A stretch of 64,000 nucleotides of DNA, from the NCBI GenBank assembly GCA_009869945.1, contig WIXG01000001.1, positions 124,001 to 188,000 of the forward strand. Reading direction: 5' to 3'. A program made the position numbers and the translations under genes. The number at the start of each line of letters is the position of its first letter. The stretch's first letter is position 1. Shown here one piece after another: positions 4,688-58,041 of this stretch. A model generated the notes under the pieces. That model did no database searches and had not been told where the DNA came from. It worked only from the letters and a program-made list of their open reading frames with translations. Source of the DNA: Mesaphorura yosii. Taxonomy: Eukaryota; Arthropoda; Collembola; Poduromorpha; Tullbergiidae.

Positions 4688-7600
4688 GACTTCCACTTGG
4701 CGGAACACGCGCAGGAAATTAAATCCAATTAATTTCTTCAGGTCCAACTCTGACCACGTGCTGCGGCCCAGGAGCGCCTCGACGAGGTTCGGGTACTTTG
4801 ATACGTCTTCGAGTCCGGTAGGCACACTGCGACGACGACGCAAAGCCCAGCATTACAATTTAATCTCCAATACTACAATGTATTACTAAATGATGCCCAG
4901 CGCAGGCCAGAAATGGAATAGGACATAAATCCACGCGGAACAAAAAAACTTTTAAAAGTTGCCGTCGCGCGTTCATTCATTTCGTTGCATTGTGCGTAAG
5001 ATTTGGCAAATGATCAGTTCTTCGCGTCGTCATCGCGCCACGCAAGCACGTCGAGTCATCATACTTTTACTCGGAGAGCGACGCACTCAGCTCAGCAGGC
5101 AAGCAGGAATTCGTATGGCCTCATTTTAACAACCAAGCGACCGACCAACTTTTGCAGTAGCAAAAAATCTTTGCCATTGCCATCGTCATCGTCATCGCTA
5201 TTACTATTAGTATTATTACAATCTAATGCCCTCACAAGGAAGAAAGTTGAGACGAAACTTTTGTCAACATAAAAGGAACACTTTTGGCATGGTTTGGCTG
5301 AGAATCGCCGAGCGGAGTAGCAAACAACGCAAGAGTGAGCAGGGAAAAGGTTCGTCGGCAGTGGCTCAGTTGCTCACACTCACACTCGCGTGTACTTTAC
5401 TTTATTTTTCTCAAACAATATTATTCTCACTTCTACATCATTTAACTTTTTACTACGTGACTGTAACTGTAAATGATGATGTAAAGTTCGCGTCGATGAC
5501 GGCCGCAGCGAAAGGCCGTTCGCTGTCGACTTCTGTTTTGTGTTTTTTGACTTTCTTTCTGCTCTGTGATCTGTGTCACAACGCATGAAGGAAACCCGAA
5601 CCTTTTTGCAGTGAATGCGTGACATGAAACTGCAGCTACGTCGCAATGTTATGTTGATGTGATCGTTTCGCGATTACGACTCGGAATGGTGACAGCGGAG
5701 TCGTAAACAGTGATGATAATGCGGTTATTATTCTGTGCACTACGCAATAAAATAAAAACCCACAGACTTTGTTCCTGCTTGAAGTTTGGCTTCGACTTTG
5801 CCATTTGCGAAATTGTGACAGAAATGGAAGACGACAAGGAAGAAGGAACTTACAAATTTATTCCGTCGTATCCAGCTCCGATTCCGACATGATCCACACC
5901 TGCGACTTCGCGTATGTGTTCGATATGAGCTGAAAATAGCAAACAGACGACAATGGTGAGAGTAATAAAAGAGAAATTTTAAGAGTCGTTTCCTGTCGTG
6001 TTCTTGCCACCTCTCGCCGTGCGTGCGGCGTGTCTCAATTTGTAGCATGTGTTCACACGGCACGGTCTTTAATAATAGCAGTGGAATAAACTCATCAGCG
6101 TTTCACTTGTTTGCTTGGAGCCGTACATTGTGCTTGGTGCTCAAAGAGAAAGTCTCCGTGCGTGCGTGAGTCGACTTACCAATAACGTCTTCAATGGAGG
6201 CAGTCTCATTACAGGCAATGAACACATTGTAAAAACTGACCATAACCAATCCACCGTTGGAAGTCTGAAACAAGAAACACACGAATGGAGAAACTTTCGC
6301 CTGTCTTTCACCTAGAATTAGGGTGACGTTATTTTGAATGCGTAATAGGCTTAACGCTAAGCCTGGCAGGGTGAAAGAGAAAGCTGTATTTCATTGCATT
6401 GCTAAATCAGGGCTTAAGGTACGCGATACGGTACGAAATGTCTCGCTTTTCGCTTGTTCTTCCTTACCACAAGTTTCAGGATTTCATCAGGTACGTTCCG
6501 TGAATGATTACAGAGTGCTGAGGCAGCCGAATGTGAAAAAATGACAGGTGCTCGGGACACGGCCAATGCGTCGCGCATCGTGTGAACAGACACATGAGCA
6601 AGATCGACGATGAGTCCAAGTCGGTTACTCTCAAGTACCACCAACTGAAAGCAGACCAGGAATCAAAACTCTGGGGTTCAAGAAGCGTGAGGCAGCGACC
6701 GACAGGGAAAGTTCATATATTACGACAGGGGCATGGGAAATGCTTGAACGAGTCTGCAAAATGTGCAAACACGAACGCGTAAGCACAACCTGTCCAAATA
6801 GTAATCTGAGATTTTCATGGCAGCAGCAGAAGAGCTTAGACGCATAATGTGAAGTGTGGTAACAGCTCATAAGAAATACGCCAGAAATTTCTGCGCACTC
6901 TTAATATTGTGGCAATTGTGGCCTTCTTTTCTTCAGCGTTAATTTATTGCCTGCCAAATATTTACGTGCAAAATTCATCTTTTCATATTTTCTTCGATGT
7001 GGTCTCCCGAAAGACCCTCCTTCACTTTTGTTTGGGCTGTGGGATGTGATTTATGGGATTGGGGAGTCGCTGTTTATTTAGGAGCTCCAGCTCGGGTTAG
7101 GTTACGCAAATGAAATCTAGCCATGCCCGATTCGGTCGCAATTCGTAATAAGGACCTACTTACGGATTGATTTGATTTATTGCAAATCTCTTCAGCGCTC
7201 AACTTTTCGAGGTCGCACAATTCAGGACAAATAAGACGGGATTCGGTACGGGTTTTAGAAACCAATTTACCTTTCCGAATTCGGTTAAGCCACCACGATC
7301 AGGTAAATAATGATCAGACGAAGCAGAATCCGCCCTAGCGTCAGGAAGAAAGTTCAGAAAACGTCGTTTATAAAGATAAAATTTCATCAAATACGAGAAT
7401 CAAAGACAAATTTTTGACATGGCGTGATGCAGGTTGTCGGTGCAAGCTAGATTCACGTACCATGGAGTATTGCAATTATGGGTCAGCGTTAATGACCTAG
7501 CCCCAAGAATATAAAGCATCCGCAATATCGCCAGACTGTTTCCGATCGCGTGTCCACCTTCCACTGCAATCAGACTCGCGATCTTTCGATGTGTGTGAGC

Positions 7601-10600
7601 GCGTTCCACGTCTGCAAATTAAAAGACCGATGGATGTATTAATTTACACGTTTATTGCATTGCACATGATAAAGGTCTCGAAACTTTCCAAGCCTGGGTT
7701 GTGTTCGAATCAGGCGTTTCACAAACACAAGTCAAGTAGCTCATCAACAACTTGGTCAAGTGGAAAACATCAACAGAACAAAAACAATGTACGGAACTCT
7801 ATTCATTCAACTCACCGCTGACAGAAGTGACGAGACTGAACGAGTCTTTGTATTTGTCAACCAATCTCTTTATCACATCAATTTGTTCCACAGCTATTTG
7901 GACAGCATCCAAATGTTGGGCCGAGCACGGGACGTACGCAGACCACAACTGGTGGTTGAGGCAATGCAAAAAAATAAAACTTGGTTTGCGTGTACATGCG
8001 TAAGACAGAAGATGTACGCAGACGATGAGCCGCGATGACACAAATGAGACAGCAGATTTTTTATACGTGGACCATTTCTCCAGGAAATGAGCAAACACGG
8101 CTTCGGTCGCCGGTCCAGGTCAAACCCAGCCATGTTTGTCATTCGCAAACATTATTGTCTATTCTCCTCGCGTTGGGGCCGTGCTCTTTCCGGGCAGCTC
8201 TCATTTATAACATTGCAGCTCATACTTTCAGATTGATACACTTACCTGAGCTCCCACGCCGCCTTCACGCAGTCGCTTGAGGTCCGTGTGCGACCAAACG
8301 CTTCCAGCGAACGGTTCAAACTGGAGAGCATGGTACCGGAGAAAGAACAAGAGCACAAAGTCAAGTCGGGTAATGTAATAATAAAGAGAACAGGAGCTGG
8401 AGAAAGTGTCAAGAGCTGAGCTTCTTTATGCACCGCACAGAAACTTTAGGCTGAAAGAGACTAAACTGGGCTAGGCGCTAGACTAGACTGGTGACAAGTG
8501 AGCAAGGCACAATTCATACTACTACAGCCCTTTACAGCTCCAATAAATTAAGTTTGCTATAACACGAGAAGGCAAGAACAAAATGAACCTGTCTCAAATC
8601 ATTGTCAAAGTTGACTTCCAGGAGTTGATTTTGTAGAAACTTTCGCAGATTCCAGGCGAGATCATTATGGCTGTAGAAAGGAGAGAAAGAACAAAAGATT
8701 CATAAAAAATTATTCGGCTCAACCTCCTTCTCGTGACTCTCTCTCTCTGTTCTGCTCTTTAAGACTCGTATTTTATTTCGTGGTTCGCAGTTTCTTAATT
8801 TGAAATTATTAGCTTCACTTGAACATGAATCTGTATGCTGGGTGCGTAGCAAAAAGACGAACTCTGAAAAATCATTTAATTCCTGGCCTAAAACACAATA
8901 CAATTCAGACAGAGGCACAGCATTGCGGGTGGAAGCCAGAAATACCGCAAAAACCGAAATGCCGTAAAAAGGAGGGAGTCAAGACAAATTTTCTAATTAG
9001 AATGGGTGAAAAGTTAAAAACTCTTTGCACTTGTACTTCCTTTTTGATCTTTACTCTTCTGCACACGGACGTTTTCATTAGCAGCAACATTCACATTCGC
9101 ATGTCGACCGTGAAGGCCGGTATGCAGCTAGCGTTTTCACCGTGAAAATTCCACGATCAGTTTTCACAGTGGGAAAAATTGTTCTTTTCACGTGGATTTG
9201 TGAGTGAAATCGCATACCCTTTTTCCACGCTGGTGGAATGAAAACTGTGGTGAACTTCTGTTGTCCTACGGTGTTCAATATTGAATATAACGAAATAATC
9301 TTGTGCTGGCTATACTGGACGCAATTTTAATTACTGTGTCTATTGCGAAAAAAAGGAATGTCGCGAGACGTTTCCCAGCTTTCAAATTAAAAAATAGCGT
9401 TAGCTGTCACAAAAACAAAGTCACGGTTAATGAAATCATATCACAGAACAATGAGCATTAGCTAGAGCTATCTTGCAGTCGCTGAGGAAAACATGTCTGC
9501 GAAAGAACGAGTTCATGAAAGTCAAAAGATTAAAGGAATTCAAGATTAGCCTATCAATTGACGCGTCTAATCCTGAGCTGATAACTGTGTCACGGCTTTG
9601 GTAAATTCAAAATCAACTTAGGATAGGACGTTTAAATTACTTGTTTCTCCGATTTAAAAGGGCCTAGTAAAATTTCACGATGAAAAGCTGCGTACTGAAA
9701 GTGTGATATGCCGAGGGAAATATCTTTTCACCCAACATTTTCTCGGCGGAATATTTCCCCACAATTATTTTGCAAGACAAAATTTCACGGCGAAAAAATT
9801 CGAGCTGCATACTTAGCTTGACTCTTAACAATTGAGAAAAAGTTTAAAGTTCTTCCAGCCACCCAGGCGAATGCATGCATAGAATTCTGGAAACGGACTC
9901 CATCGTTTCTTGTAGTCTTTGATTAGGCAAAAAGCAAATGAACAGTGCAGCTGTTGGTATTAAAGTTGTGGTAAGGGTCGACAGGGCGCTTAATTAAGAA
10001 AGAATGAGACAGCATGCTACACGATAACGAACAAGTTCCAGCCCAACTTGCCCAGCATAAACGATAAACCATTTCACCTTAATGCTAGAGCTCGGGTACG
10101 GGAGTACGTAAAAAGAAGTTTCAACGCTCGCTTAAAGAAAAAATGAGGAAATTATAATATCCATGTATAGAACTTTCTCTGCTAACAAAAGCGCAGGTAT
10201 GGTGCAAGTTCACCCCATTTGTACTTTCCTACAAGGTAGAAATGGTCCATAATAAATTACTTTTCTCAAGGCTAAAAGCAAGCCAAGAGCGGTCGTTGAG
10301 TTTATTGTTACTATAAATAGAACAGAAACAGAGATGAACAGAGATGAACAGATGTGCAAATTACTGCAGAAGGGCACAAGGCACAGAGCATACAGTGCAG
10401 TGCCTGGATTTAATTATGTACACCAAAGTTTCGCAATTAAAAACGTTCATCAAATATACACTTTTAAGCATTTGAAAATGCAATTTGATGGAGTGCAGGA
10501 AAAATGGGCCAAAGTGAGCATTTTCGCGTAGAGTTAGAAGAAATCAGGACAGTATCTGAAGCATTTATGGCTAAATCAGCTTGAAAAATCCACATCAAAC

Positions 10601-34306: not shown

Positions 34307-37300
34307 TTAAATTCTATCATCCTCTTTCTGGAGTTGTTGGCTGTTTCGTCTCTTCTTCATGAAATAGAACGCACCTCCTCCAATTGCACCGCCAACTATC
34401 AGCACGATAAGGACGATCACGACGATACCACCGGCCTTCTTGAAGAATGGCTTGTCATCATCTTCGGATTCGAGATGAGTTGTTGTTTCCGTTGATGTCG
34501 TAGTCGTGATTGTGGTTGGGGTTGTGACTTCTGGAGTTGTGGTGTCTTCTGGAGTTGTGTCCTCGACATCGTCGGGATCATCCACCAGTTGAGCAATGTT
34601 AGATTTCACAATCTGTTAAAAGGGTCGGGTTGTAAACACAACATGATGCAGGCTGAATAGGAATACTTTTTGGAATGCATACGCGTTCAGTTGGCAGAGC
34701 TGGGAAGTTGGAGTATACGGAATGCACGACGTAGTATGAATAATACTCCCCAATAGAAGGTGGTGTAATAATTTGAACACTTTCCTCCGCACCGGGCTGA
34801 GAAACTTCGAAGACTTCCCGTATCAACTCTCCACCCGGGAGCTCAGAATTGAGTGTATCAAAGCTGTTGGCCCCAAGAATGTAATATCGGGTAGCTGAGA
34901 GAAAAGGGGAATTGGAATTAGTTTGGAGACATTGGAGGGCTGCTGTTTAAGTTATTGGGACGTGTTGTTCAAAGCCTTGAGGGTATGAGCTTACCTTTTG
35001 CACTGGAGTTTGTGCCACCAAGAATTTTTGGAGAACTAAATGTGAGTTTCAGTAGCAAGTCGTTGGGATCTTGTCCTTCCAACAGCACAGCTGAAAGGTC
35101 CAAGATCTTAGCTGGTCCCTAAATATTAATCATTAGGTCAGCATTGGACATTTCACCATCGAGACTCTGAAGTACTTACCACCGGGAATTGGTCAACATT
35201 TGTAAATCTAATATCACTAATATCAAATGTGCCGGTGTACGCTTCATCCAATGATACTGGTTCACATTCCTCACAGTCAAAATCTTCCTGGTCAACCGGC
35301 AAAAGTCTTGACGGCCCAACCCTGTTCACGTAAGATAACGCGCTTCTCTCGGCGTCACCACTGCTTTCAACCTTCACAGAGACTTTGTAAACTCCGGAAT
35401 CGGGAGGAATGTGTAAGCCACTGTAAACTCCGTCACCCTTTTCCAGGTCAGGGAATCCGGTGCCCTCATCCAACAAATCGACAATGACTTCTGTCCCATG
35501 GTTGTCTGTAACCGTGGCTTGAACAACAACGTCCTTCACAGGCTTGTGGTTGAAAAGAACCTGCGCAGTCGAAACTAATGTGAAATATAAATCAAAGTTT
35601 TCTATTATAATCAAATCCTTAAAATGTGTGACTTACGGTAGCATAAATAGCAAAGGGCTGAGAAGTAGCACTGAAGTTCACAACACTATTAATCGCAGAT
35701 GTGCTGATAGAAACGTCAACGTTTTCATATACGCTTGATTCTGAATGTTGTCCAGCCACAAGCACTCGCGCCTCGAATAGTTCATGACAGGCATCCTCAC
35801 ATGTGTACTGCACTTGGAAATTACCCTGGATCTACCGATAGGACATAATTGTGATCATCTCCTGACTCAACACCGACGCCAATTTCCTAATGATCAAGGA
35901 ATCCCCAAAACTTACATGTTCAGGCACTTCGAAGGTGTAGACAACTCTTCTTGTAGGCTCTTTGTCTTCGTCCCATTCGTTTCTCGGGGTTCCCGGAAGC
36001 TGAGCGTCCCCAACCTGCAGGACCGGCACGGTGCCGTGAGGAACGGTGATATGGACCTTGACATTTGAGATTCCGCTCGGTTGGATGATAGATTTGGACT
36101 CCCCGGGCTTCAGTTTTCCCCTGAATAGCTGCAAACACACATTGCCCCTTAAACAATCGAATGCAGAGTGTGTTTCAGGGCAATCGGCACAGATGCCTTC
36201 CACTTACCGATTGTGTTGACTCTGCAATCGGCACTGGTTCGCTTGGTGTGTTTAGAATAGTTCGAATCTCGTTAACGATGGCCGCGATCTGTTCCGGTGC
36301 AGTGGTAGGATTATCAAATTGGCCGTGCTTGCCGCCCGTTCGCTCGGCGACTGTTTTAAGGTTGACAAATGGAAGGTCGGCCGAGGCCGGCACTTCGACT
36401 GCGAACATTTTGATATTTGCCTTCGAAAATGCGGCAGAAACTTCTTCCTCAGGTTGTAGTGATCCTATTTGAATGAAAATTAGACGAAATCTTTCATGAA
36501 TTTCATCGAAAGCAATCCCGCCTGCAATTTTATCTGTAATTTCGGCGTACCGTAGTACGTTTGGACTCCACCCGTTTTGACAATCAGCACAACAGCCCCT
36601 GCTTTCGAGCTCAAACTTTCAACACTTCTGGCCACATCCAGGAGGGCAGAACTGAAGTCTCTGAAGGGGTCGTAGTAGGTTTCGACTTCACCAAGTTTAC
36701 TAGGAGCCCAGGCACAGTATGCTAATTAAAATCCGACCTCCACCTGCTTTACGTCTCATGGTATCATCGTAAATCTCACATACGCGATAAATTCGTCCTC
36801 GTTTCCGCGGACTCTCTTCCATGGCACAAGTGTTTGGAAGCCGTTGTCATTGAATACAGAGAGTGAACCAACTAGATTCGCGTTCTCTTGACTTTCGACG
36901 TCAAACAATGGTGCCAAGTTACGAATCACATGATTGACGATAATAAGATTATTTGGATCCTGAAATAAGTGGTGTAAATTAGTTTACATATTCTTCAAGT
37001 TTTGCAATTTGCAACTCTTACGTCAACAAAGCCACGATCAAGCAACACGTGGAGTGTGGGATAATTGCTAGTTTTGACCACATTTACACTTGGAACTAGA
37101 ATTTCTATAAGCGGTTCGATTTCGTTAAAGTCAGGACTGGACTCGATGACTTCCCACACGCTCTTGTAGTCACAATACAAGTTCTGCTTGTTGGGTGCGA
37201 GCTTGTTGTGGGTATCTTTATTACAGAAGTGAGTTACGGACTCGAGCCAGTGGTAGCCCATCAAGGAAGAAGTAGCTCTGCTGGTGGATGACGGATGAAA

Positions 37301-38863
37301 CCGGCAGTCGGCCTCCGGTGCTTCGCAGGGCGTGTCGCTTCCGCTGTGCAAGAAGTAATCGCTGCTTAAATTGTACAGGAATCAAACGATAACTGAGTAA
37401 TTACTTACACCGTTCGGTACACTCCCTCAAGCGCGACATCAGAACAGCTTGTTGGTTCCCAACTTTTCTTGTCGGCTGGAATTCTTCGGTAAAAGTAAGG
37501 AAATTTGTCTGTGCCAGGATAGCCGTGCTCTTCCCAAACTCCCCATCGGAATCGGGCCCATTGAGTCAGAAGAGCCTTAACTGTTAATAAGTTATTAGAA
37601 TCATTAGACGTCATCACAAATAGGTTAACCAAAGCTAAAACAATGAATGTCTCAAGTACCAAGTGAGCCATAAGTGGGGTCTTCCTGTTCTCCACTCAAG
37701 AATGTGTGTGGCAATTCAATGTACTGGCCCGGGTGACCACACAAATGCGGATTGGCGACATAGGGCGCGGATACTCGCGTGGAGAGTCGAACGTCAGAGG
37801 TTGAGTAAGATTCGCTGTAAAACCGACAAAGGAATTTTAACTAAAGTATTCAGATAACAAAGCTGAATACTTTAAAAACTTGTGTTGATTGTGACCAATT
37901 CTAGTAGTAAATTAAAAGATAACGCTGCCAAATTGAATTTCCTCATTCGCTGACGTGAGGCATTGTAGGATTATACTGAAAGTGAAATCGGAGCACGGGC
38001 TATTATCAGACGTGCGAACTACTTGAACGAAATGACAATCGTACTCGCTCATTGTTTTTCCGAATAAATTGTTTGTCATTCGCATTTCAGTAAGCAATTA
38101 GCTGCCCACGGGTCCTTTATGTCTGTAGTTTGGTATTTATGAACCTGATAAGGCTGCTTTAGACGTACAAGCAATCATGGTTTGTCCCTTGTCTACCGCA
38201 TCACATCGGATGAAAACTTATTTGAAAGCGTATGTAGTGATGAACTCGACTGTTGCCTCTGACTGGGCATGAAAATATTCAGAATTCAGAGCGGGTTCAA
38301 ATGATACTCCTCTCAAACGCTGACTGGAGTGTTATAACCATTAATGTAAGATTGGCGCCTAAATCCCGATAGCTTAACTCTAGCTTTTTTAAGGTGAAGC
38401 AATGCTGATCGCTAACGTTAAACACTAGACACTAGGTTGCATCGGACTTACGTTGACGAAAACTCATATTTGGCTGTCCCTTCTCCACTCCAACTTGATG
38501 GCAACAAAACATGCACATCATCCAGGTGGAAGTAGCCATTTGTGGACATGAACAGTTGAATGTTGAAATTTTGGATTGTAGTCTGAAAAGAAACGACGCG
38601 AACTGCACTATGATTAAAATCAGAAGGCTAGGCAATTTGGAAGGTTTAAAAAGAATTCTTACGCGAATGTTGGCAATGTAAGTTTCTAGCGCATCTGCGG
38701 TGGACGGCTCGGGGACGCTCTCTTCGATAGCCAATGTGAAGGTGTATCCTCCTGTGGTCGGGTTGACTGTGGTGACGCTCTCTGCACGCTTAACGACCAG
38801 ACTAACGATTAAGAAGCCAGCGCAGAGGAGTAACCTGCGAAAAGTAAAACTAAGAATCTTCAT
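34307..38863 (-). CDS. CLCA-like (calcium-activated chloride channel regulator family) protein A, non-catalytic
   Basis: Fourteen exons join in phase to 995 residues: 38863-38663, 38582-38452, 37814-37660, 37580-37409, 37343-37022, 36959-36784, 36699-36551, 36464-36208, 36128-35916, 35825-35637, 35560-35180, 35118-34995, 34894-34683 and 34612-34307. The order of parts matches CLCA proteins: signal peptide (about 1-29), N domain with VLLPSSWSG and NPHLCGHPG, the RWGVW block, the Cys/Asn block (HNKLAPNKQNLYC), a VWA-like region, a beta-sandwich with LLDEG and GDGVYSG, a Thr-rich stalk, and a membrane helix at about 957-979 with a short KKRR tail. CLCA proteins normally self-cleave through an HEXXH protease motif just before RWGVF. 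Here the same place reads LLTQWARFRW, and the VWA metal site reads LLDRGFVD instead of LDxSxS. It is therefore predicted to be a non-catalytic surface protein. It is the most downstream of three tandem copies. Confidence 0.9.
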
Positions 38864-39817
38864 TTTGCTTTAAGAGTTATACGAAAAACTAAATCGCGTT
38901 TCGGCAGTGATTGCACTCTGATCGCACTTTGCGACTGATGGCCGATCGAACGGTCCGTGGATGTTTTATTAAGAGAATTGCATCGTGTCTCGAATAATAC
39001 TGGTTATCTTTGCTATTCATTCCAGGTTGTACTAATTTTCAACACGAATGCACGACTCACTCTCCGATAAAAATACAATGATGAGCTCAATGTCTATTCA
39101 ACAGGTATTAATCAATGTATTAACGGCAATTATGTTGCGTCAGGGGCTACATGGTTCATTGTCTAAAGAACTTATCGCTGCTTTACGTCAAGTAGCAAGC
39201 GAGTACAGCACACATTTATCATGAATCAGTTCATTATTTCGCCAATTCCCGAATTTATGCTGAAGTCGTGCATATTTGTTGTCTTAGTCTGCCCATTTAC
39301 TGCCCCTTGGTTTTAAATTGCCTCACTGATAAAGCGCGTATGTCCTGTAACATGAGTAATCATTGCATCACTGTGTTCATCAGCTGAGACTTGAACGTGA
39401 GCACTTCAAGCCATTGTTTTCAATACCTGGGTGAATTTCTTGATTAGAATGCGACAATTATGCACCCCTTTTCAAGCTCAAGGGCCACCCCGCATGGTAC
39501 CAAGTACGTTAGCACTTGTCCACAGGGAGCAGAGACCTTCTAGAATTTTTAGCTTGGGGTTTTAAATAGAATTGGTCAAAGTCCTACATCTCTGTGGCTG
39601 CTTGCCGTGGAGTGCGAACTGTGGAATTTGAAGAATCGTTGTTCACTTACTTCACTTCAGTCAGATACTCAAGCCGTCGGTTCTCCATCTCGGGCACAAA
39701 AATCATTGCCACGTAACCATTCCTTTGCTTCTTGTCATTTCAACCTCTTGCAGCTCAATATAACTACCTAACCAACTAAATATTTCGGAAAGAAGGTAGA
39801 AGGGGTACTTATCAATC
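38864..39817. other. Intergenic region upstream of CLCA-like gene A
   Basis: No coding sequence was seen. It should contain the promoter of gene A on the minus strand. No TATA box stands out. Confidence 0.4.
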
Positions 39818-40170
39818 ATGCCGACAAAATCAGTACAAGAAACCTTCCATTCAGCGTCCGAACGTGTGTCGGACGCTGAAACCAGCAGCAGCAGCTCCTT
39901 TACTGACAACGGCACAATGACAGCAACAACCACAGCTATATCATTGCGTGCTCTGGACCTTTCGGTTTCTTCGACAAGCTACAAATGCAATGGCGCGCTG
40001 TAAATGCGTCTGTCTTTGGCTTCCAAATTATCAGTGCGCAAAGGGTCATATTGTCTGTTCGAAATGCTACGGAGCGATTTTCCCAGTCTTTCCGAAGACA
40101 TATATAGGAAATTTTGTGGCGGAGACGATTGCGCTGGATACATGTCAGTTGTCGGCACAATAGGAATAGT
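39818..40170 (+). pseudogene. Degenerate SIAH/SINA-type RING fragment
   Basis: The window opens with a Ser/Thr-rich frame (MPTKSVQETFHSASERV, then a Ser run) to about 40003. In another frame it continues with WLPNYQCAKGHIVCSKC, which resembles the PPI-x-QC-x-x-GH-x-VC-x-x-C half of the RING domain of SIAH ubiquitin ligases. The next block (FPVFPKTYIGNFVAETIA) aligns with the CPxCRxxLGxxRNxAMExxA end of that RING but has lost its Cys residues. The frame change and lost ligands point to a dead copy. No clear substrate-binding domain follows, although 40300-40640 has further protein-like frames (DTDFCFTYFSGHRNFC). Confidence 0.38.
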
Positions 40171-40723
40171 TGTGGGCACAGCTTCAAACTCAAGATGCTG
40201 GGGCCTCATTTGTTGGATTGCAAGTTCAGGTAAGGTCAAGCAAGGCCACCAATGGCGGAGTCCGGCCTTGATATTTAATTTATTAAACTTATGCAGTTGC
40301 CTTCTTTGTGCAGCATGAACAAGTTCGTTGACAAGCTATTCCGAACGAGCGATACGGACTTCTGCTTCACCTACTTCAGTGGTCACAGGAATTTCTGCAA
40401 TACTTACGATATGCTCTGTATGCAAACCACAGAACTTGAATTGATTGCCACATCATCGCCTTGATTCACGCACAGGCGCATGGTGGATTCAGGATTGAGT
40501 GGGAAAGAGATGTCATTGGCTTTGACACTAAATGTAAAGATAACAAGAATCAGAAGTTTACACTCCCATGGAGCATTTACATAGCCCAGAGGAAGAGATT
40601 TGCTGCAGAGAGCGCGGGGTTTAACCGTTCATGTGAAGCCTAGCGTGCCAGAGCTCCGACGTCAATGAAGCTATTTTTGGCAAGATTGAAAAAATATCAT
40701 CTTGAAGTTCTTATTCTGTTCAC

Positions 40724-40729
40724 TTTATT
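40724..40729 (-). promoter_or_regulatory. Polyadenylation signal of CLCA-like gene B
   Basis: The minus strand reads AATAAA about 80 bases past the stop codon at 40808. It is the same spacing as in gene A. Confidence 0.5.
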
Positions 40730-40807
40730 TGGCCCAAATCAATAAAACATACTGTAATGATGTAATGTGTTTACTGTTTTGCCTCAAAAGTAATTTAATC
40801 ATTCAAA

Positions 40808-43800
40808 TTAAGCCACATTCAGATTTGACTCTGAAGCTGAAGGTTCAGTAGTTGTGAACGTCGCTGGAGTTTCGGCCATTAACTTGCCGAAGTCTGTGCT
40901 CTGATTTCTTCGCTTTAAGTAAAAGTAACCCCCACCTCCAGCTGCGCCAAGGACAATCAGAATAATCAACACAATTACAACTATTCCACCTGCGGTTTTA
41001 AAGAATGGTTTGTCGTCGTCCGAGCTTGGTGTTCCTGTTGTACTTGGAGTCTGTGCGGTCGTTGTAGTTGTCGGCTGTACCGTGGTCGTAGTTATTGAAG
41101 GTTGTGTTGTCGTTGTTATTGGTGGCTGTGTTGTTGTTGTTATTGGTGGCTGTGTTGTCGTTGTTGTTATTGGTGGCTGTGTTGTCGTTGTTATTGGTGA
41201 CTGTGTTGTAGTCGTCGTTGTAGTTGTTGCAGTTGTCGTAGTTGGTTCTGGTTCGTCAGTCTCCTCCCCGATTTTGATGGCATTTGATAGTCTCGACTAT
41301 AAACAAACCATTGGGGATTAGTTGTTGAAAAAGCAGATCGTTATGCCTATTTTACCGTAGTCAATCCATTTTTACTCCTAATCGCTATGTACGCATGTTC
41401 TTCATACAGTGCTCTGGCAATGGGGATTGAGCGAGTCTCAGGAGACTCCGGAACAGCCTCGCCGACTTGGTCAGGTAGGATGACCTCGACAAAGGAATCA
41501 CTGCTCGTTGAAGCGAGTACATCATATCGGAAATTTTCAGCTGATGACAAAACAAATATCCACCTGGTGCAAATGCGCGCAATATTTAAACTGCTCCTTA
41601 GAAATACTTACAGCCGACATTGCCAGGCGTCTGTGGGACAGTGAACGTTATCGTAATTCCTTCTGCGCTCGGTTGACCATTTAGATTAAGAATCTTGAAC
41701 GGTCGATCAACAAAATCCTACGGCATAATGTCAAGGACAATGTAAAGAATGCCAGAATGTCCACACGAGCAAAACTGTAGATTGTTTCTTACCGGGGGAA
41801 TTGAACCTGTATTCCTTACAGTAATTGCATCTTCCAATTCAGCATTCTGTACGAAATTCTCACCCACTTCGACCGACTCGCGTTCATCTTCTTGCTGGTC
41901 GACCGGCAGCAATCTCTGCGAAATACTCCTCCCATGCACTTGCACGTCTCTTCGGCCCCGAGAGCTCTCAGCTGCAACATAGACTTTAAACACGCTGTCT
42001 TTCGTTGGTATGAAATTTCCAGAGTAAATGCCGTCCAATTCGTCCACGTCGGGTGTGCCAAATCCGTTATCAAGCAGAGTCAACTCATACATTCTGCCAT
42101 CTTCTTGGTCTTCAAGGTAGGCTCTAACGAGCAAGTTTCGTACTGGAATTTCATCTTGAATTATCTGCATCAATATCGGTATTAAAATTCACATGCACGC
42201 CACCGCGTCATATCAAAGATCTGCCTTTCACCTTCGCGTAAATTCCAAATGGAGAAAGCGATTCGAGAGTTGTAGCAAAGTCAACCACATTATCCTGTGC
42301 GGAAGTCGAAATTGTGATTTCAACGTCGGCAGTAGCTGCCAACAATCCTGGCTTCGAAGCAGACGCTGTGCGGTCAGAAACTCCGTAGATCAAAAAGTGG
42401 CCAGACGCCCCGCATCCAACTCCAGCACAGCCATAATTGAACGACCAGACTCTTTCATCCTGTAATTCAAGCGACATTCGACTTATCAATTCTCTACAGA
42501 TGTAGGGGCTTTGTAAATGTGTGAATACTGACGTTGTTCTCCAACGGAGGAGTCAAAGAGAGTACGTTTCTTGCCGTAGTTGAACTTATTAAATCCACCC
42601 TCCAATCCATGCTTCTCGTATAATTCCGGGGCTCGCCCGACACCATAAGCATAGCCGTACCTGTGCTATCAGAGGGAAGCACTAGATGGGCTTCTACGCT
42701 TGTCACATGTTCCGGGATTTCCACGTCAATGGCATTGCCGAGGTTCACTTGTCCATTAAATAGCTGTAAAATTAAGTTGACCTGCTCAATTGCTGAATCT
42801 AAAAGGCTCTATTTAGGCTGCAAAAATGCGACTTACTATTTCAATACTCTCTGCCGGTGTCTCAACTTTTTTGACCAACTCAGCCTTTAGCAATGTCAAC
42901 AGTTCATCAATCACGACATCAACCTCCGCCAGCGTATTCACTGACCGCAAAATGCCACCCGACTTTTCATGAAGATTTGCCAAATGTTCACTGCCAAGTT
43001 CAAGCGAAATCAGAGTAATTTGCTCCTTTCGAAGTATGGCAGCAACTTCCTCTTCGAATGGCATATTCGGTTTTAATTCGGTTCCACCAATTTTCAGGAA
43101 GAATATTACTCCACCACCCACAGGACGTTTGGCACGAATCAGCCTCGTCACTTCGATAATCGGTGAGGCAAAGTCACGGATTTCTTCCCCGTCCGTCTTC
43201 AAATCCCCAAGTTTGCTGTGGGAAAGAAAATTCATTCAAGTTTGAAATTCGCACGAAAAATTCACGGAAGCTAGTCATACATGATGAATTCTTCCAAATT
43301 CGATTCAAGTTGTGTGAAGCCAATTTCCGCATTTAGACTAGCACCATCGATGGGTTTGACAAGAGGGAATGTTCCTAAGCCAGCTATCGTATTATTTAGT
43401 TCGCCCGGTTGAAAGAATTTGGTCAAACCATGAATTACCGCGTTCGCGACTGGAAAGTCAACCTGCAGGCAAATCTCACAAATAAGATTTAGTTCGTTCT
43501 TCTCTATTAAAACACGTAAATGGTCTTTACCGTGGGTCTCGCTTTGTCCAGTATGAAATAGAGGTATGGCGTCGTGTTTGGCTTCAATGTTCTGAATTGA
43601 ATTAGTTCAATTTCAATAGGATCGGTTGGCGGTTCAGTGACCAGCTGATAGTCCGAACTCTGACTGATAATTTCCATGACACTTTTCTGGTCACAAAGCA
43701 GGTTTTGTCGATTAGGAGCGAAGAGGTTGTGCGTGGACTCGTCGCAAAAGCGTATCACGGAATCCAGCCAGTGGAAATGCATCAAAGATGTTGTGGCATT

Positions 43801-44832
43801 GCTCTGAAAATTAGGGTGGAATCGGCAGTCTTCGTTTGGACGGCCTGCAGGGTCGACCTCGCACACATCTCCGTGCCTAAAGATTCGAATCCTATCAGTA
43901 GTTAATCCAAACTGGCAAGGTCTTTGCAACTTACCGATCCAACAATTTTCCATCCAGATGCTCGTTCGAGCATCCTGTGGTAATCCAATCTCTCGAGTTC
44001 AGTTCTGCCTTGGAGAAGTAGGGGTACCTGGTACTCGTGCTGTGGCCGTGCTCTTCCCAGACACCCCAGCGATAGCGCGCCCACAGCGCAAGAAGTGCCT
44101 TCCCTAGTAGGGAGACATTACATTATATTGATTCAGAGCCTAAATCAAATTGCGACCCTGATGGTTTTTCGAACACAATTAATTTTGCGTCATTTACATG
44201 CGACTCCGTACTGTCCATCATTCCCATTGAAAAATGTGGACGGTAATGAAATGTGGTCGCCGGCTAATCCACATGGATTTGGGTTGTCCACCGATGCATA
44301 CTTGATTTGGTCTGATAAGCGAACTTCTGACGACTGGTACGAGGCACTGCAAAACACAATTAACATGCACTATTTTTAACAAGCAGCATCAAGTCTAGCT
44401 TTTGTTTCAGCTTTCGGGCTTCTCCGCCCAATTCATTTCATTATTGTGCGTGTTGGCTATTGCTGGAATAGGCGAATTTACGTAATGTCAGCTTCGACCG
44501 CTCCTGCCGCTGTCCACGTGTCTGGAATGAGAATGTCCACAGACTTCACATGAAATCGCTCTGTCGTTGCGAATAAATTGTTGGAAAACTCTTGCAGAGA
44601 TCGCTATTAACATTCAAGGTTGCTATTAGTCGAAGCTAAACGCAGATTAATCGAGATTTAATGTAGAATCACTAACTTTCAGGCTTCCGATGTACTGGGC
44701 CACATTTGCCGGCTCTGGTGTATCTTTGTCGACCGCAACGACGAAGCTGTACCCACCATCGATGGCGAGCTCAATTCCATTTGCTATTTGGATCACAACT
44801 GTACACACGGCGATGAGTTGGATGGGTTTCAT
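40808..44832 (-). CDS. CLCA-like protein B, non-catalytic, with Thr-rich repeat stalk
   Basis: Thirteen exons join in phase to 1037 residues: 44832-44677, 44603-44482, 44346-44198, 44103-43935, 43876-43531, 43462-43281, 43215-42837, 42763-42533, 42459-42232, 42164-41793, 41717-41612, 41540-41356 and 41296-40808. It has a signal peptide (MKPIQLIAVCTVVIQIANG), the N-domain words ILIPDTW and NPNPCGLAG, the Cys/Asn block (FCDESTHNLFAPNRQN), the VWA-like region, LLDNGFG plus LDGIYSG in the beta-sandwich, a mucin-like stalk of ITTTTQPP repeats, a membrane helix at about 979-1002, and a 35-residue tail. The HEXXH position reads LLALWARYRW and the VWA metal site reads ILDKARPT, so both are lost. Exon order and phases follow genes A and C, which marks them as tandem duplicates. 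The cytoplasmic tail is longer than in A or C. Confidence 0.9.
41090..41215 (-). repeat. 24-27 bp tandem repeat encoding ITTTTQPP units
   Basis: About five to six head-to-tail copies of a 24-base unit (one is 27 bases) lie in the last exon of CLCA-like gene B. They encode ITTTTQSP, ITTTTQPP, ITTTTTQPP and close variants, which form a Thr/Pro stalk likely to carry O-glycans. Near-identical copies suggest recent expansion. Confidence 0.8.
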
Positions 44833-45836
44833 TTTTCACCGGTATGAGCGCAATGATCAAATTGGGTCTGGTGCCTTTTATGCTTCTCCAAGGCCAGAAA
44901 TTCCAAGCTGGTTACAGTCTGAAGCCTCGACTGCTCAATGCCGAACTTAAGAATCACGAAGGCGAGGATTATTCATCAACTCCAGTTCAGTAGCAATTTA
45001 ATTTAATTACAGCAGTTGACCAAGAGCTGATAGCATAATCCTATTCAACATTTCCATGCAATGCACTGATAAGGGCTTCCAGTTTAGTTATGGAGCTCCA
45101 TACGGGCATGCTATCTGTCAGTTTTCTAGTGCATCAATAGCAAAGAGCGTATTGTGCCATTGTTTTGTAGAGGGGTTGTGTGTTTAATATCAGCAGTAGA
45201 GGTACGAATTATTTGAGCTATTATGTCATTGGAAAATTTTAGGCTGAAATGCTGACAAAGTAAGCAAAGTGATGTCAAATTGCATGAATGCAAATGCCAG
45301 ATTCTGCGAAACGTGATTTAAGGTTTTCAGTAATCTTGAACAGAATCCAATGAAATGGAAAGTCATCAACATTGGTTTATTGGGAAGGTATAATTTGTAA
45401 AAATGCAATTTGTATATTTGTAAGCTTGTGCGTTAAAATGGACTGTTCTTTCATAGAACTCACAATTTCACATCAATCATGATGGATTAATCCAGTTGTA
45501 CATTTGTTGCGTAAGTTGTAAGTGGTATTAACAATTTATTGTTCTCAGCTGACGCGGTGCTATCAGCGATGGTGATTATCAGTCTGTGCGGGCCCGCACT
45601 GCTCTGGAATTATGAAGGTCGTGGCGGTGATGGTGACGTTGATTTTGCTCGTTCTCTTTCGCTTTCCTTCTGTCTGCGACTGGCGCGATACTTTCGCCTT
45701 TTACGTGCATCGTGCCCTAGGACATATCAGCACAAATTAAGAAGCGGCAGTCTGATTCACCCCAAGAATTCCCGAATTAATGGCCACAAGAAGCAAACTC
45801 ACCAGTTGGAAATGACTAGACTTGGATTTATTACAC
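44833..45836. other. Intergenic region between CLCA-like genes B and C
   Basis: No gene was seen. It should contain the promoter of gene B. A short run of open sequence at 45539-45868 (plus) has no motif. Confidence 0.45.
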
Positions 45837-45842
45837 AGATTA
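45837..45842 (-). promoter_or_regulatory. Polyadenylation signal of CLCA-like gene C
   Basis: The minus strand reads AATAAA about 60 bases beyond the stop codon at 45903. Confidence 0.5.
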
Positions 45843-45902
45843 ATAACATACAAATGGTTACTGGTTAATTTCTAGGATAATTTGAAATCAAGGTGCAGCG
45901 AC

Positions 45903-48900
45903 TTAAGCAGTAAACATATTTGAAGACTGAGAGCGTTTCTTACAAAACCAGACACCACCAGCGAGAAGTGCAACCACCACGATAATGATGGCGATGATCG
46001 TTACGATTCCTTCAGTTTTCTTCCAGAACGATTTCTCGTTCGTCTCCGGTTCTTGTGTGGAAGAAGAGGAAGGTGGCTCGGACCATGTAGTTGGTTCGCT
46101 AGTCGGATCGTCTTCCTCCGTTACGGGCTCTTCTGTGGGACCAGTTGACGTGAAGAAAGGCTCCAAGAGATTTGTGGTTCGCAGCGCTGACAACTCCGAT
46201 GTCTGAAACGGAATACACCGTACGCAGTGTACGCAATATGCAATCGAGAAGAATCATTATTACAAGTATATGAGTACAGCGTACCATCGACGTATCATTT
46301 CTGTTGAAGACGACAATTCCAATCCACACTAGTTCGTGGTAGCGATTAGACTTCACGCGCAGTTCTTCACGTTCTCCTGGTTGCTTGGTCCCGTATACTA
46401 TTTCCAAGTCCACCAGAGTGCGATTGTCCATGTGATCCAGAAGCAAGTCTCTTTCCTTTGCAATGTAGACATTATATCCTAGGTGCGCTGTTATGATGAC
46501 AAATAAAAAGGTCACTAATAAAACTCTGCCACGATTACATTGCCAATGGAAGACAAACCTGCCCCAGTTGTCCCATGGCTTGGAGTGACGAATGTCAGCA
46601 CGATTTCACCGTACGATGTTTCAGGTACATCCAGCTCTAGAATACGGCCCGGCTTTCCCTGGAATCAATCGAGCGGTTGTGACCGAACTGTGCTTCGGAA
46701 AATTTTTATTCAACTTACAGCAACAAATTCTCTTCTGTTGATAAATGTAACTGTGTCGACGGTATCGATGCTGGCTTGGTACACTTTCTCCAGTCTCACA
46801 GCTCCACAACCGCCCTCGTCATCCTCCGAGCATCCGAATTGGGTTTGGTCAACCGGAATCAATCTTGTATCGATTCTTTCGATTGGTTCACCAATTACAT
46901 CATTCTTGATCTGTACAGTAAATCTGTATTTTCCGTCTTCGTCAGGGATGTACGTTCCTGAATAAATTCCGTCTTCGCGGTCAATGTCCGGTTGTCCAAG
47001 TCCATCATCCACAAGGGGCACAGCGTGGACGCTGTCTCCATTCATTGACGCGACATGGGCATGGATCTTTAGTCCGACTACAGGGCGATGGTTAACACGA
47101 ACTCTTGCAAATATGGTAAAAGGTGAAGGGAAGTCTTTCGTTGCGTTCAGATCCACAATTCGATCAACTGCGGAGGTGAACACTTGTACATCCAGTTCGT
47201 TGGGGGCTGGATCTTCCCGTCGCCCACGCCCACTCTGACGTTCATGATCAGTAATTGTAGCATCTTTTTGGAATCCATTCACAAACAAATGAGCTCGCAT
47301 GTTTCCACAATTCTCCGTGCAAGTGTACATGATTTTCCATTCGCCACCGTTCTGATCAATGAAACAAAATGATTATATGCTATAGTGTAAGTAATAGTTT
47401 ATCGGGAAAAGAGTACAGTTAACCCACTCACAAGTTCTTGTTCTGCTGATGGAAGAAAGAAGCCCGGATAAGTGACCCTTCTCTGCCCATCACTCATTTC
47501 GTCCCACTCAGGCGCTCCTTGCTCGACAACAGTTCCGGGAGCCGTACTGATTAAAACGTCAGCCGATGCTGGAATCGTCAAGTAAAAATTCATTCTTGTC
47601 AGGTTTGGCTTGACTAAAAGTGTTGTGAGCTGCGCTTCCTCCGTGAAGCCTCTGAATATCTGCAAGAATAGGTCACGTCATGAAATACGCAGATTCGTAC
47701 AGTCAGTGAAACCGAGCCTCTCATCCTTACAGTCGTCTCCGTCGAAATTTCTTCAGTAATTGGCGCACTCAATGCAAACCGAATATTCGCCAGCAGACCC
47801 TCGAACAAAGTTGGATTGTCGACAGTGGAACTGGTTACAATTGTGTGTTCACCGTTCACTGACGCCAGCAGAGATCCCATGTTCAAGTATGGTTTGCTAG
47901 TCTCGCCCCTCAGCTCCAAACCAAATACCTTAATTTTCTCACTGGCGAGCGCAGAAAATACTTCTTTTTCGTACGCCAGGTCGCCAAATGAATTTTCACC
48001 GGCACCTGTTTTAACAATCAGGAGCACGGCGCCCGACGGTGAGCTTTTGCGTTTAATTATCTCCACAGCTTCAATCATTGCATGTCCAAAATCTCTTCTC
48101 GAGTCTCCGTCAGAAGGAAGTTCGACAGCGCTATAGAATCAGAAAATATGTCTTTAAACTGATTAGATTGGACAAAGTTCAGATTCTTCCGTATTGTAAT
48201 GACGTTACTTTTGGAGGACCACTCTGTTCGAGCTTACTGTTGACCATTGAACTCTTTCAATGACATGTCCACTCCTTGTGGACTGAGAGCTTGGAAAGGT
48301 ACCAACCGCTGCTAGAGTCGTGCCTGGAGTTGGCTCGTCAAACAATCGGGAGACCCAAGCGTTAATTTTTCGCACCGTTGAGGGGAGCTAAACAAACGTT
48401 CACGTCAGCGTATCTCATTCATTATTGTGATCAACCAAACTTTCCACTTACTTGAGTCTGGCCCTTATCTACAAGCACATATAACACAGGAGTCCCCAGT
48501 TCCTTGTATATCTGGAACTGAGTGACAGGAACTCCGTCTTCAATCTGCTGAGTGACCGTCTTGCTATCAGCGGTCTCACGAATCACTTCCAAGACGCTTT
48601 TATAACCACAGAACAGGTTCTGCCTGTTTGGTGCATCTCGATTGTGATTGGTTTCGTCGCAAAAATTGGCCACGGAATCCAGCCAATGAAAGTGCATCAA
48701 AGATGTAGAAGCGTCATTTCCAAAGTTTCTCGGCTGGAATCTACAGTCGGAGTGAGGCTGTTCCTCTCGATCTATGCTGCATTGCTTGCTGATATCATTA
48801 TACCTAAACATGAACAGAACAGCTTAACAACTTGCATCAATGACAGAAGCATTTCACCTTTACGTTATTTACTTGTCCACGTAATTTCCAATCAGCGGTC

Positions 48901-49748
48901 TGTCGGAACACCCGGTCGTTTCCCAAACTCCGCGCTGGCTATCGCGATAAAAGTACGGAAATCTTGTGCTCGACGGAAATCCGTGCTCGTCCCAAACTCC
49001 GTAACGGTATCGGGCCCATTGTGTGACCAAAACTTTGGCTGTAAGAAAGCAACGACTACAGCATATCCAATCGAAAACTTGAATTGAAATGTTCAACCAA
49101 CCTTGTTGGCCGAATGGTGTTTCATTCAATTTCTCAAAGAAAGTCAAAGGCAGTTCAATATGACTGCCAATCATCCCACACAGATTTGGGTTTTCGGTGT
49201 ATGGGTCCACGAACTTGTCCGAGATGCGCAGATCGGCAGTGCGGAAAGATTGACTGCAAAATTAATTAATCAGATAATTTTCATCAAGAGCACGGAAGAA
49301 TCTCCCGTCTTTGGCTCTCGAGGGTCTTACATTGTTGCGGACATTGCATTATCGCCGTGTGTAGTGTTCCAGGAGGCCGGAACCAAGATTTCTGCTCGCT
49401 TGATGTAAAATGTACCATTTGTACTTCGATACAAGTGGCCAGAGAAGGAAATGAGCGTGTTCTGAACAGGAGGAAGACAACTTATTAATTCACAGTTCAC
49501 TACTTCTCAGAGTTCATGACTGTCCGATGATAAATTACCTTAACATTTGCTAAATAGCCGACACTGTTAGTTAAGTCCTGATTCGTCTGAATGGCCAGTG
49601 TAATCTCATACCCACCGTCCGCGTTCAATTTGGCAGCGGATGCAACTGAAGTGCAATGAAAACTTAAACCATGCATCAACTGCAACACAACTGAAACAGT
49701 TAGCGCGTAGGAGTTTAGAATGGCCTTGACCTGGAATCTGAGTTTCAT
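45903..49748 (-). CDS. CLCA-like protein C, non-catalytic
   Basis: Twelve exons give about 1005 residues: 49748-49539, 49461-49331, 49253-49102, 49038-48873, 48803-48452, 48387 to about 48245, 48130-47731, 47659-47432, 47351-46719, 46658-46559, 46487-46285 and 46202-45903. It has a signal peptide (LNSYALTVSVVLQLM core), ILVPASWNT, NPNLCGMIG, the Cys/Asn block (FCDETNHNRDAPNRQN), the VWA-like region, LVDDGLG plus EDGIYSG, an acidic Thr/Ser stalk, and a membrane helix at about 971-992 with a short KKR tail. The HEXXH place reads LVTQWARYRY and the VWA metal site reads LVDKGQTQ. In exon 6 the best donor (CA|GTAAGC, 48238) would shift the frame, so I used a weaker donor (TG|GTCAAC). The exon 47351-46719 fuses two exons found in A and B. 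ATG 49748 is the first in frame before the signal peptide. Confidence 0.85.
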
Positions 49749-56469: not shown

Positions 56470-57951
56470 TCAGTACGATACAGACCAGGAGTACGAGCCA
56501 GGCGTTCTAAGTGAATAGCGCACTGGCCTACGGGCTGGAAGATATCCTCCGTAACTGCTACTGTTTGAGAAATGCTTCGGTCTTCTAAGGCTGTAGGACG
56601 ACGGTCCTTTCAGGCGATTAAATGATGAGCCCTGATGATGTTGATGATGGTGCTGATGGTGGATTTTGACTGGTTTCGGTGCGTGTGTGTGTACTGGCGG
56701 TGGGCCATAAAATGTCGGTCCAGGTCTGTCGCTGTGAATGTCGTCCTCAGGTCCCAGTACGTCGTACTGTGGCAAGTTCAGCTCTGCGCCATACTGTTGC
56801 GATGGTTTGGGCACTGGCGCAGGCCTGTATTGCGGCCTCAGATCCGCGCCATACTGCTGCGAAGGTTTTGGCGCAGGTGGCAGGCCGTACTGCGGCCCTA
56901 CTTCTGCGCCATATTGGGGCGATGGTGCTAATGGCCCGGATTGCCCGAGCGCGACATGTGATCCAGGCAAAAACTTCACAGTTCTTTGACCTTTGACTTC
57001 ACCTAACTGGTGCGTATAGTGGAAATGTGCCACGACAGGGACAACAGGATTTGGACTGCCGTGGTGCACAATTTCAGTCTCAGGGGCCGTGGGTCCATAA
57101 GATGCTGACGGAGGCAATGGCGCGGGCCCCGGTTCCGAGGGGTTATGTGTATGAACATTGTTATCAGGAACAACATGGATCTGTCCGTGTTCGATTCCAG
57201 GATGATGCGCGAGGAAGTTGTACTGGGGCGGATGCTGCTGTTGGTGAAGGTGTGGCGGAGGGAAATAACTCGGTTGGTACGACGGAGGGGGTGGAGGAGG
57301 AGGGTGTTGGGGAGATGGAGCTGGTGGAAGGTATTGTATGGAATTCGCAACTGGTCCGTAAGACACGGATGGCGGGGGTGCAGATGGCGGGCCATAGGAT
57401 ACGGAGGGCGCGGGCGGAGGTGACGGAGCGTATTCTGGCGGTATTTGCACGTGCGGCTGAGGCTGATGCTGCTGCTGTGTTGGCGGATGATTCTGCAGTA
57501 AATCCAGCTGTAAATGCTGGGGCGGTTCCTGATACTGTTGTTGCGGTTGCTTGTACAAATGTGGCTGCTCACGAAGTCGTTGCTGATAAATCATCTCATC
57601 AATGTGCTGCAGCGTTGATCCATAGCGGTTAAAGTCTTCATCCGTGAGAATCAAATTCTGATTGTTGAAATGGTGTCCAGAATTGGGATTCGCTGGTTTT
57701 ATGCTCTGAGGACGCTCGTGCCAGCGTCCAGGATGTGGAAAGCCGTGATGCTCGGCGTACGCATTGCCGCTGAGTGGGCGATCAGTCGGGATAGTTTGTC
57801 GGAAGATTTGTCGCTTCACTCTTGTGTAAGAGTCTAGTTGCCGTTTTTGTGCTTGCACACCTTCCACGTTCGCCGAGTATGAAACTGGCACACTAACTAG
57901 CACTATTACCATTAGCTGTAACAGTACGCTTCGTTTGCCAGATGACCCCAT
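56470..57951 (-). CDS. Secreted Pro/Gln/Tyr-rich protein with furin-type site
   Basis: One long coding exon encodes 493 residues. ATG 57951 follows an acceptor (ACTGAAACAG) at 57961-57962, so the 5' UTR is split by an intron whose donor is near 58041. The N terminus is a signal peptide (SVLLQLMVIVLVSVPVSYS), followed by RVKR at residues 44-47, a furin-type cleavage site. The mature part starts with a non-repetitive His/Asn-rich section (NAYAEHHGFPHPGRWH). It continues with Gln/Pro-rich sequence, VSYGPP repeats, QYGAE/QYGAD repeats (three), a His-rich patch, and a Tyr/Ser/Arg-rich end (TPGSYSWSVSY). Such SYGPP and QYGA repeats occur in arthropod extracellular matrix and cuticle-associated proteins. 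I cannot assign a family. Codon use is balanced and the frame is free of stops, so this is a real gene. Confidence 0.85.
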   Translation of the reverse strand: MGSSGKRSVLLQLMVIVLVSVPVSYSANVEGVQAQKRQLDSYTRVKRQIFRQTIPTDRPLSGNAYAEHHGFPHPGRWHERPQSIKPANPNSGHHFNNQNLILTDEDFNRYGSTLQHIDEMIYQQRLREQPHLYKQPQQQYQEPPQHLQLDLLQNHPPTQQQHQPQPHVQIPPEYAPSPPPAPSVSYGPPSAPPPSVSYGPVANSIQYLPPAPSPQHPPPPPPPSYQPSYFPPPHLHQQQHPPQYNFLAHHPGIEHGQIHVVPDNNVHTHNPSEPGPAPLPPSASYGPTAPETEIVHHGSPNPVVPVVAHFHYTHQLGEVKGQRTVKFLPGSHVALGQSGPLAPSPQYGAEVGPQYGLPPAPKPSQQYGADLRPQYRPAPVPKPSQQYGAELNLPQYDVLGPEDDIHSDRPGPTFYGPPPVHTHAPKPVKIHHQHHHQHHQGSSFNRLKGPSSYSLRRPKHFSNSSSYGGYLPARRPVRYSLRTPGSYSWSVSY

Positions 57952-57960
57952 GCCAAATGC

Positions 57961-58041
57961 CTGTTTCAGTGTTTGAATCTAAGAGTGATAATTTCATAAA
58001 CATGCATTCAAATCAATCAATCCCAGAATGAGAAAAGTTAC
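57961..58041 (-). other. Probable 5' UTR intron of the Pro-rich protein gene
   Basis: On the minus strand the donor (GGAAG|GGTAAC or GGAAGG|GTAACT) near 58041 and the acceptor AACAG at 57961 bracket about 81 bases. The upstream exon would start in the 58.1-58.4 kb region. No TATA box is clear. Confidence 0.4.

Follow-up and report, generated by a model that had tools for sequence, protein, structure and literature searches.

The vertebrate members of the CLCA family carry in their N-terminal domain (CLCA_N) a zinc-protease motif of the HEXXH type, which reads HEWAH (PMC9007345, PMC10669480) and belongs in mammals to the zinc site HEXXHXXXGXXDE (PMC11231702). The mammalian zinc site cuts the CLCA precursor, in trans in the case of CLCA2 (PMC10669480), the published cleavage site being R/ALY (PMC9007345), and mutation of the site in mammalian CLCA2 and CLCA4 abolished the cleavage together with the effect on the channel (PMC10669480, PMC11231702). 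The metal ion-dependent adhesion site (MIDAS) of the VWA domain is required for the potentiation of TMEM16B by CLCA4 (PMC11231702). The subject of this work is a trio of consecutive CLCA-like genes, A, B and C, of the collembolan Mesaphorura yosii, situated in a window of 64,000 nucleotides (assembly GCA_009869945.1, contig WIXG01000001.1, positions 124,001 to 188,000 of the forward strand; coordinates below are those of the window). The trio lacks both metal motifs, and its products probably belong to a CLCA set composed entirely of pseudoproteases.

Such losses have a precedent. In the survey of Lenart et al. (2013) HEXXH was present in 72 % of CLCA_N members and had most likely been lost five times independently, replacement of the second histidine by lysine (H5 to K) being frequent (PMC3650047). 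Since only 72 % of the members had the motif, HEXXH does not decide CLCA membership. Substitution or loss of the CLCA active site was thus already published in 2013, and since substituted CLCA sites are in print the loss in the trio is an instance of a reported change (PMC3650047). What is added here is a count for one genome, a loss more simply read as shared than as parallel, the disappearance of the cleavage site along with the metal motif, and a fixed basic residue.

Like vertebrate CLCA1, CLCA2 and CLCA4, the trio proteins comprise a near full-length CLCA_N domain followed by a putatively VWA-like and a beta-rich region. They share a C-terminal membrane anchor with CLCA2 and avian CLCA1, and the number of exons modelled for gene A equals that reported for chicken CLCA1 and mammalian CLCA1, 3 and 4 (PMC9007345). 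Unlike the vertebrate proteins they have no HEXXH, DxSxS, Pfam VWA match or R/ALY, and they possess a stalk rich in Thr, Ser and Pro. In common with CLCA_N proteins described by Lenart et al. they have lost HEXXH and kept the domain, and five further genes of this genome show the H5 to K state. In contrast to what the compared text of that paper describes, ten genes of this genome, the trio included, have all three catalytic positions changed, with Arg at the second His in 10 of 10, a state not named there; a count for one whole genome is likewise absent from that text (PMC3650047). The inactive ADAMs and other metallopeptidase pseudoenzymes also have a changed HEXXH and act via protein-protein interactions, but they belong to other families, and a term search of the available review text found no CLCA (PMC11266112). 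Literature searches on CLCA in arthropods, mites, tardigrades, Daphnia and invertebrates gave, among the matches listed and judged by title and start of abstract, no work on the arthropod CLCA site; a text search for HEWAH and HEWAK gave, among the matches listed, chance letter matches.

The CLCA trio and its HEXXH place

Genes A, B and C are three consecutive intact CLCA genes on the minus strand at 34307-49748 (Table 1). The exon models were obtained with a spliced aligner custom-written for the present analysis, and each spliced model is open from Met to one stop at its end. Gene A has an approximate border at its last exon, the preceding exon terminating at a GC donor; in gene B it is uncertain where the Thr-rich last exon starts, and the C-terminal exon borders of gene C are approximate. 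The match to CLCA_N (Pfam PF08434) spans 255-260 of the 266 profile positions in all three proteins. The proteins are 32-35 % identical to each other and their fourfold sites are 0.29-0.32 identical, which amounts to saturation; judged from these sequences the trio consists of old paralogues.

Table 1. Coordinates of the CLCA-like genes and of their landmarks in the window
Feature	Position	Strand	Content	Basis
Gene A, CLCA-like	34307..38863	-	14 modelled exons, 965 amino acids, C-terminal stalk and membrane helix; CLCA_N E 2.4e-44	
Gene A, HEXXH place	37537..37566	-	TQWARFRWGV	frame reading
Gene A, first VWA metal loop place	37025..37042	-	LDRGFV	frame reading and alignment
Gene A, last exon	34307..34612	-	Thr-rich stalk, membrane helix, basic tail	
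Gene B, CLCA-like	40808..44832	-	13 modelled exons, 971 amino acids; CLCA_N E 1.2e-37	
Gene B, HEXXH place	44060..44089	-	ALWARYRWGV	frame reading
Gene B, first VWA metal loop place	43534..43551	-	LDKARP	frame reading and alignment
Gene B, last exon	40808..41125	-	Thr-rich stalk, membrane helix, tail	
Gene C, CLCA-like	45903..49748	-	12 modelled exons, 993 amino acids; CLCA_N E 1.8e-39	
Gene C, HEXXH place	48995..49024	-	TQWARYRYGV	frame reading
Gene C, first VWA metal loop place	48455..48472	-	VDKGQT	frame reading and alignment
Gene C, last exon	45903..46202	-	Ser/Thr/Pro-rich stalk, membrane helix, tail	

The six motifs by which an initial annotation had described the HEXXH and VWA metal places were found in the minus-strand frames exactly as it had read them. 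The trio does not stand alone in the genome. The search with PF08434 gave 32 matches at E <= 1, from which 15 CLCA gene regions were derived (the first look scored 31 candidates), so the trio makes up 3 of the 15, and an intact HEXXH is present in none of them. These counts refer to detected regions in an assembly of 1127 contigs, which may be incomplete. The same genome gave 66 matches to Chitin_bind_4, a family that generally indicates an arthropod, and 7 matches to the lipocalin family, among them a fatty-acid-binding protein that was uninformative on this point, its best PDB matches being vertebrate chains; COX1 had no match. The CLCA_N profile matches all 15 N domains at E <= 0.001, and 20 columns are invariant across them. 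A direct scan of the genome for DNA of the HEWxHxxRx[YF]G type gave no match; the Trp form (HEWAHLRWG, vertebrates) is outside its coverage. It is therefore the 15 regions of the family search that support the absence of a HEXXH copy, as the DNA scan covered the Tyr and Phe forms only.

The family splits into ten genes with the site xxWxR, to which the trio belongs, and five with HEWxK. In the ten-gene group the site reads TQWAR in genes A and C, ALWAR in B, NQWAR in L031, TLWAR in L037, NLWLR in L032, L034 and L036, and SLWLR in L033 and L035; in the five-gene group it reads HEWMK in L038, HEWAK in L039, L040 and L042, and HEWGK in L041. Both His and the catalytic Glu are thus lost in the ten, where T, A, N or S stands in place of the first His and Q or L in place of the Glu. 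The place of the second His is occupied by Arg in 10 of 10 and by Lys in 5 of 5, encoded by AAR in the five genes and, among the ten, by CGN in nine and AGA in one. Within WxxxRxGxxEExG no variation was seen at the Trp, the Arg, the two Gly and the second Glu (15/15), and the first Glu after the motif is Glu or Asp throughout, Asp occurring in gene C only. The other two substituted positions are variable, so that the constancy of the basic residue at the second His is suggestive of a structural role. A HEXXH relocated elsewhere in the protein, which had been named as grounds for refuting the loss, was not found in any of the ten models of the group (0/10). When the gene strand of the three gene regions is read in its three forward frames, HExxH occurs once, past the stop of gene A. 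The domain is kept, its catalytic residues are replaced and, as described below, the sequence is under purifying selection, the combination that characterizes a zincin pseudoprotease.

L031 (G000:C1:55500-64500) is a fourth gene of the ten-gene group that shares the contig of the trio, at a distance of about 96 kb below it, and the family is thus partly clustered. The phases of introns 1-3 are 0,2,1 in 9 of the 10 models of the group; those of L031 were modelled as 2,0,1.

History of the motif loss

In the tree of the N domains the five-gene group and the L032-L036 group each had a bootstrap of 100, and the deeper nodes among the ten were weak (49 to 55). The tree is unrooted, and the status of the ten as a clade assumes rooting on the five-gene branch. 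With this reservation the simplest history would start with an early replacement of the second His by a basic residue, followed by a single loss of His and Glu in the ten-gene group; two changes suffice because HEWAH is the published vertebrate state. The codons given above also allow H to K and H to R to have arisen independently. Parallel loss in the three genes, as proposed in the initial annotation, was set aside as unneeded: the substituted state is common to ten genes, and HE followed by Lys is found in the remaining five, so that one shared loss covers the ten-gene group on this unrooted tree.

A prokaryotic outgroup with HEXXH was also sought. The profile scan returned 15 pattern matches and no relative, and the scan for the HEWAH pattern returned one stretch, L051, with no CLCA seen in its frames; it was rejected as outgroup, its longest frame (1057 amino acids) being by eye a transporter. 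No CLCA relative was found among PDB sequences with either the N domain or the VWA queries, and the 6 weak matches of the VWA profile there were unrelated (best E 0.013).

The VWA region

The DxSxS motif at the first VWA loop was found in none of the 15 CLCA gene regions. The initial Asp of this loop is kept in 9 of the 10 genes of the ten-gene group, and in the five-gene group the loop reads EETGN in four genes and EDSLE in L038. The T and D of the MIDAS in loops 2 and 3 also appear lost, as judged by eye from an alignment of 12 rows that contained no solved CLCA VWA. Two further observations were made on these loops. The place of the first one lies at the extreme end of exon 5, adjoining the intron, in A, B and C (37022, 43531 and 48452, respectively), and at the place of the third one the ten-gene group has by eye Lys or Arg at the canonical Asp, so that a basic residue stands at this lost metal site as well.

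The Pfam VWA profile matched none of the 10 segments from the ten-gene group. In a mixed set it matched 2 of 12 segments, L042 at 7.9e-08, and because the ten-gene group gave 0/10 both matching segments belong to the HEWxK group. A comparison of the ten-gene with the HEWxK profile aligned 168 columns co-linearly (P 4.5e-4), with a weak hhalign probability of only 33 %; a control comparison against the N domain gave 16 columns and a probability of 0.7. The DUF1973 profile had no match in A, B or C. The full CLCA layout ascribed earlier to the trio is thus shown in part only: the CLCA_N domain is clear (Pfam E of 1e-37 to 1e-44), and Pfam recognises neither VWA nor DUF1973.

The C-terminal part and the cleavage site

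The beta-rich domain and the part downstream of it are kept. Each gene of the trio ends with a stalk and a hydrophobic helix followed by a short tail, and the N-terminal hydrophobic segment scores above the cut in A and B and below it in C. The end of L037 has a stalk and a membrane helix as in the trio, and L031 has a Thr/Pro-rich stretch near its end. L038 (G000:C5:507500-517000) contains at 5331-7740 one long frame in which a hydrophobic helix is followed by a long stretch rich in Pro, Ser and Thr, which may be a cytoplasmic tail; the tails of the trio, by contrast, are short.

The R/ALY cleavage site expected near residue 700 was found in none of the five ten-gene-group models reaching that place, the other 5 of 10 ending before it. 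Gene B has an ALY further downstream, outside the expected place. Close to where the site would be expected, 5 of the 10 models (A, B, C, L037 and L031) have a stretch L(L/I)PVDQ in common, and the rest stop short of it.

Selection on the CLCA genes

The proportion of synonymous differences (pS) in the trio was 0.78-0.80. NG86 dS was undefined there, so fourfold-site identity, codon-position identity and codon-model likelihoods were used. Identity among the trio genes was 0.58-0.60 at second codon positions versus 0.30-0.32 at third positions. The codon model fitted omega at 0.035 with a log-likelihood (lnL) of -7515.3, versus -7672.2 at omega = 1 (157 units worse), the value of omega itself being unreliable since synonymous sites are saturated. 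For a set of five genes lnL was -12049.7 versus -12365.6 at omega = 1 (316 units worse); the omega = 1 runs used a fixed kappa of 1.456. In the closest pair, L035/L036, dN was 0.276 and dS 1.50. The trio genes are clearly kept under purifying selection and are not decaying. The earlier proposal of selection instead of decay is thereby borne out by the open frames, the shared intron phases and the much worse fit at omega = 1; the pairwise dN/dS with which it was to be checked is unreliable because of the saturation.

Possible function of the trio proteins

By known chemistry neither the self-cleavage nor the step depending on the VWA metal should be able to run in the trio. Given the lost zinc and VWA metal sites, we consider it probable that A, B and C are members of an all-pseudoprotease CLCA set and serve on an epithelial surface as adhesion or scaffold proteins that stay uncleaved and tethered to the membrane. 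They would be type I membrane glycoproteins which, having no zinc-dependent self-cleavage, would not shed themselves and, having no VWA metal ion, would not hold a partner through metal. Partners would be bound through metal-independent faces of the kept fold, and the fixed Arg or Lys may fill the place of the zinc and hold the dead site together. A surface role, also put forward in the initial annotation, fits the Thr/Ser/Pro-rich stalk and the C-terminal membrane helix of all three genes; the epithelial setting is suggested by this topology and by analogy with the vertebrate family.

Several points weigh against this reading. An open-frame scan placed membrane helices in 4 of the 10 ten-gene-group regions, the ends of L032-L036 being unresolved. 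The Pfam VWA profile failed throughout that group, where the identity of the VWA region is weakly indicated by position and by the faint profile match. Moreover, mutation of HEXXH in mouse CLCA4a did not abolish cleavage completely (PMC9007345), and another protease might therefore still cut the trio proteins.

The last point leads to the alternative that survives best, in which the proteins are cut by a different protease and their freed N part engages a partner independently of metal ions. The partial cleavage of the CLCA4a mutant, the retained beta-rich domain and downstream part, and the L(L/I)PVDQ stretch common to half of the models speak for it, but R/ALY is missing from all five models that reach the place, and we regard this explanation as rather doubtful.

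According to a further explanation the trio proteins are decoys or dominant-negative regulators, inactive proteins that bind and restrain active CLCA paralogues in the manner of human CLCA2 E165Q. CLCA2 precursors do co-immunoprecipitate, and with E165Q store-operated calcium entry was below that of the vector control (PMC10669480); Lenart et al. suggested that inactive zincins serve as decoys (PMC3650047), and targets other than active CLCA paralogues are possible. We disfavour this explanation, and think it quite improbable, because no active paralogue was found: none of the 15 regions has HEXXH, the accompanying DNA scan covering HEWxH before Tyr or Phe only. That some catalysis persists through another metal site or chemistry, for example with the retained Glu-Glu pair and other residues, draws on the conservation of these two positions in all 15 domains, but the ten-gene group has neither His nor the catalytic Glu, and in mammals one change of H or E abolishes the cleavage of CLCA4 (PMC11231702), which makes this idea very unlikely. 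The view that the trio genes are relaxed remnants or pseudogenes without a present function, to which the loss of two functional sites and a VWA region unrecognised by Pfam might lend some colour, is largely refuted by frames open from Met to stop across 12-14 exons, the codon-model and codon-position results and the invariant columns of the N domains.

The preferred reading of uncleaved surface proteins leaves room for a more specific proposal, offered tentatively and considered unlikely, that a cation was exchanged for the zinc: Arg or Lys would sit at the Zn2+ position, pair with the retained Glu-Glu and lock the dead site as a binding surface. If this were true, it would explain the over-representation of Lys and Arg in substituted HEXXH sites, which was left open by Lenart et al. 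(2013), and the substituted residue would mark a gain of structure and not a simple loss. Because the second His is uniformly replaced by Arg or Lys, this open question on inactive zincins could be put to a direct structural test. If an arthropod indeed has neither the zinc protease nor the VWA metal site in its whole CLCA set, the self-cleavage and MIDAS-mediated channel binding known from mammals would not be the universal purpose of the family, and this lineage would be a natural place to seek a function of uncleaved CLCA.

Elsewhere in the window

The minus strand at 56470-57978 holds a 502-codon frame with no Pfam match at E <= 0.1, rich in Pro and Gln and in SYGP/QQYGA-like repeats. By composition its product could be a cuticle or matrix protein.

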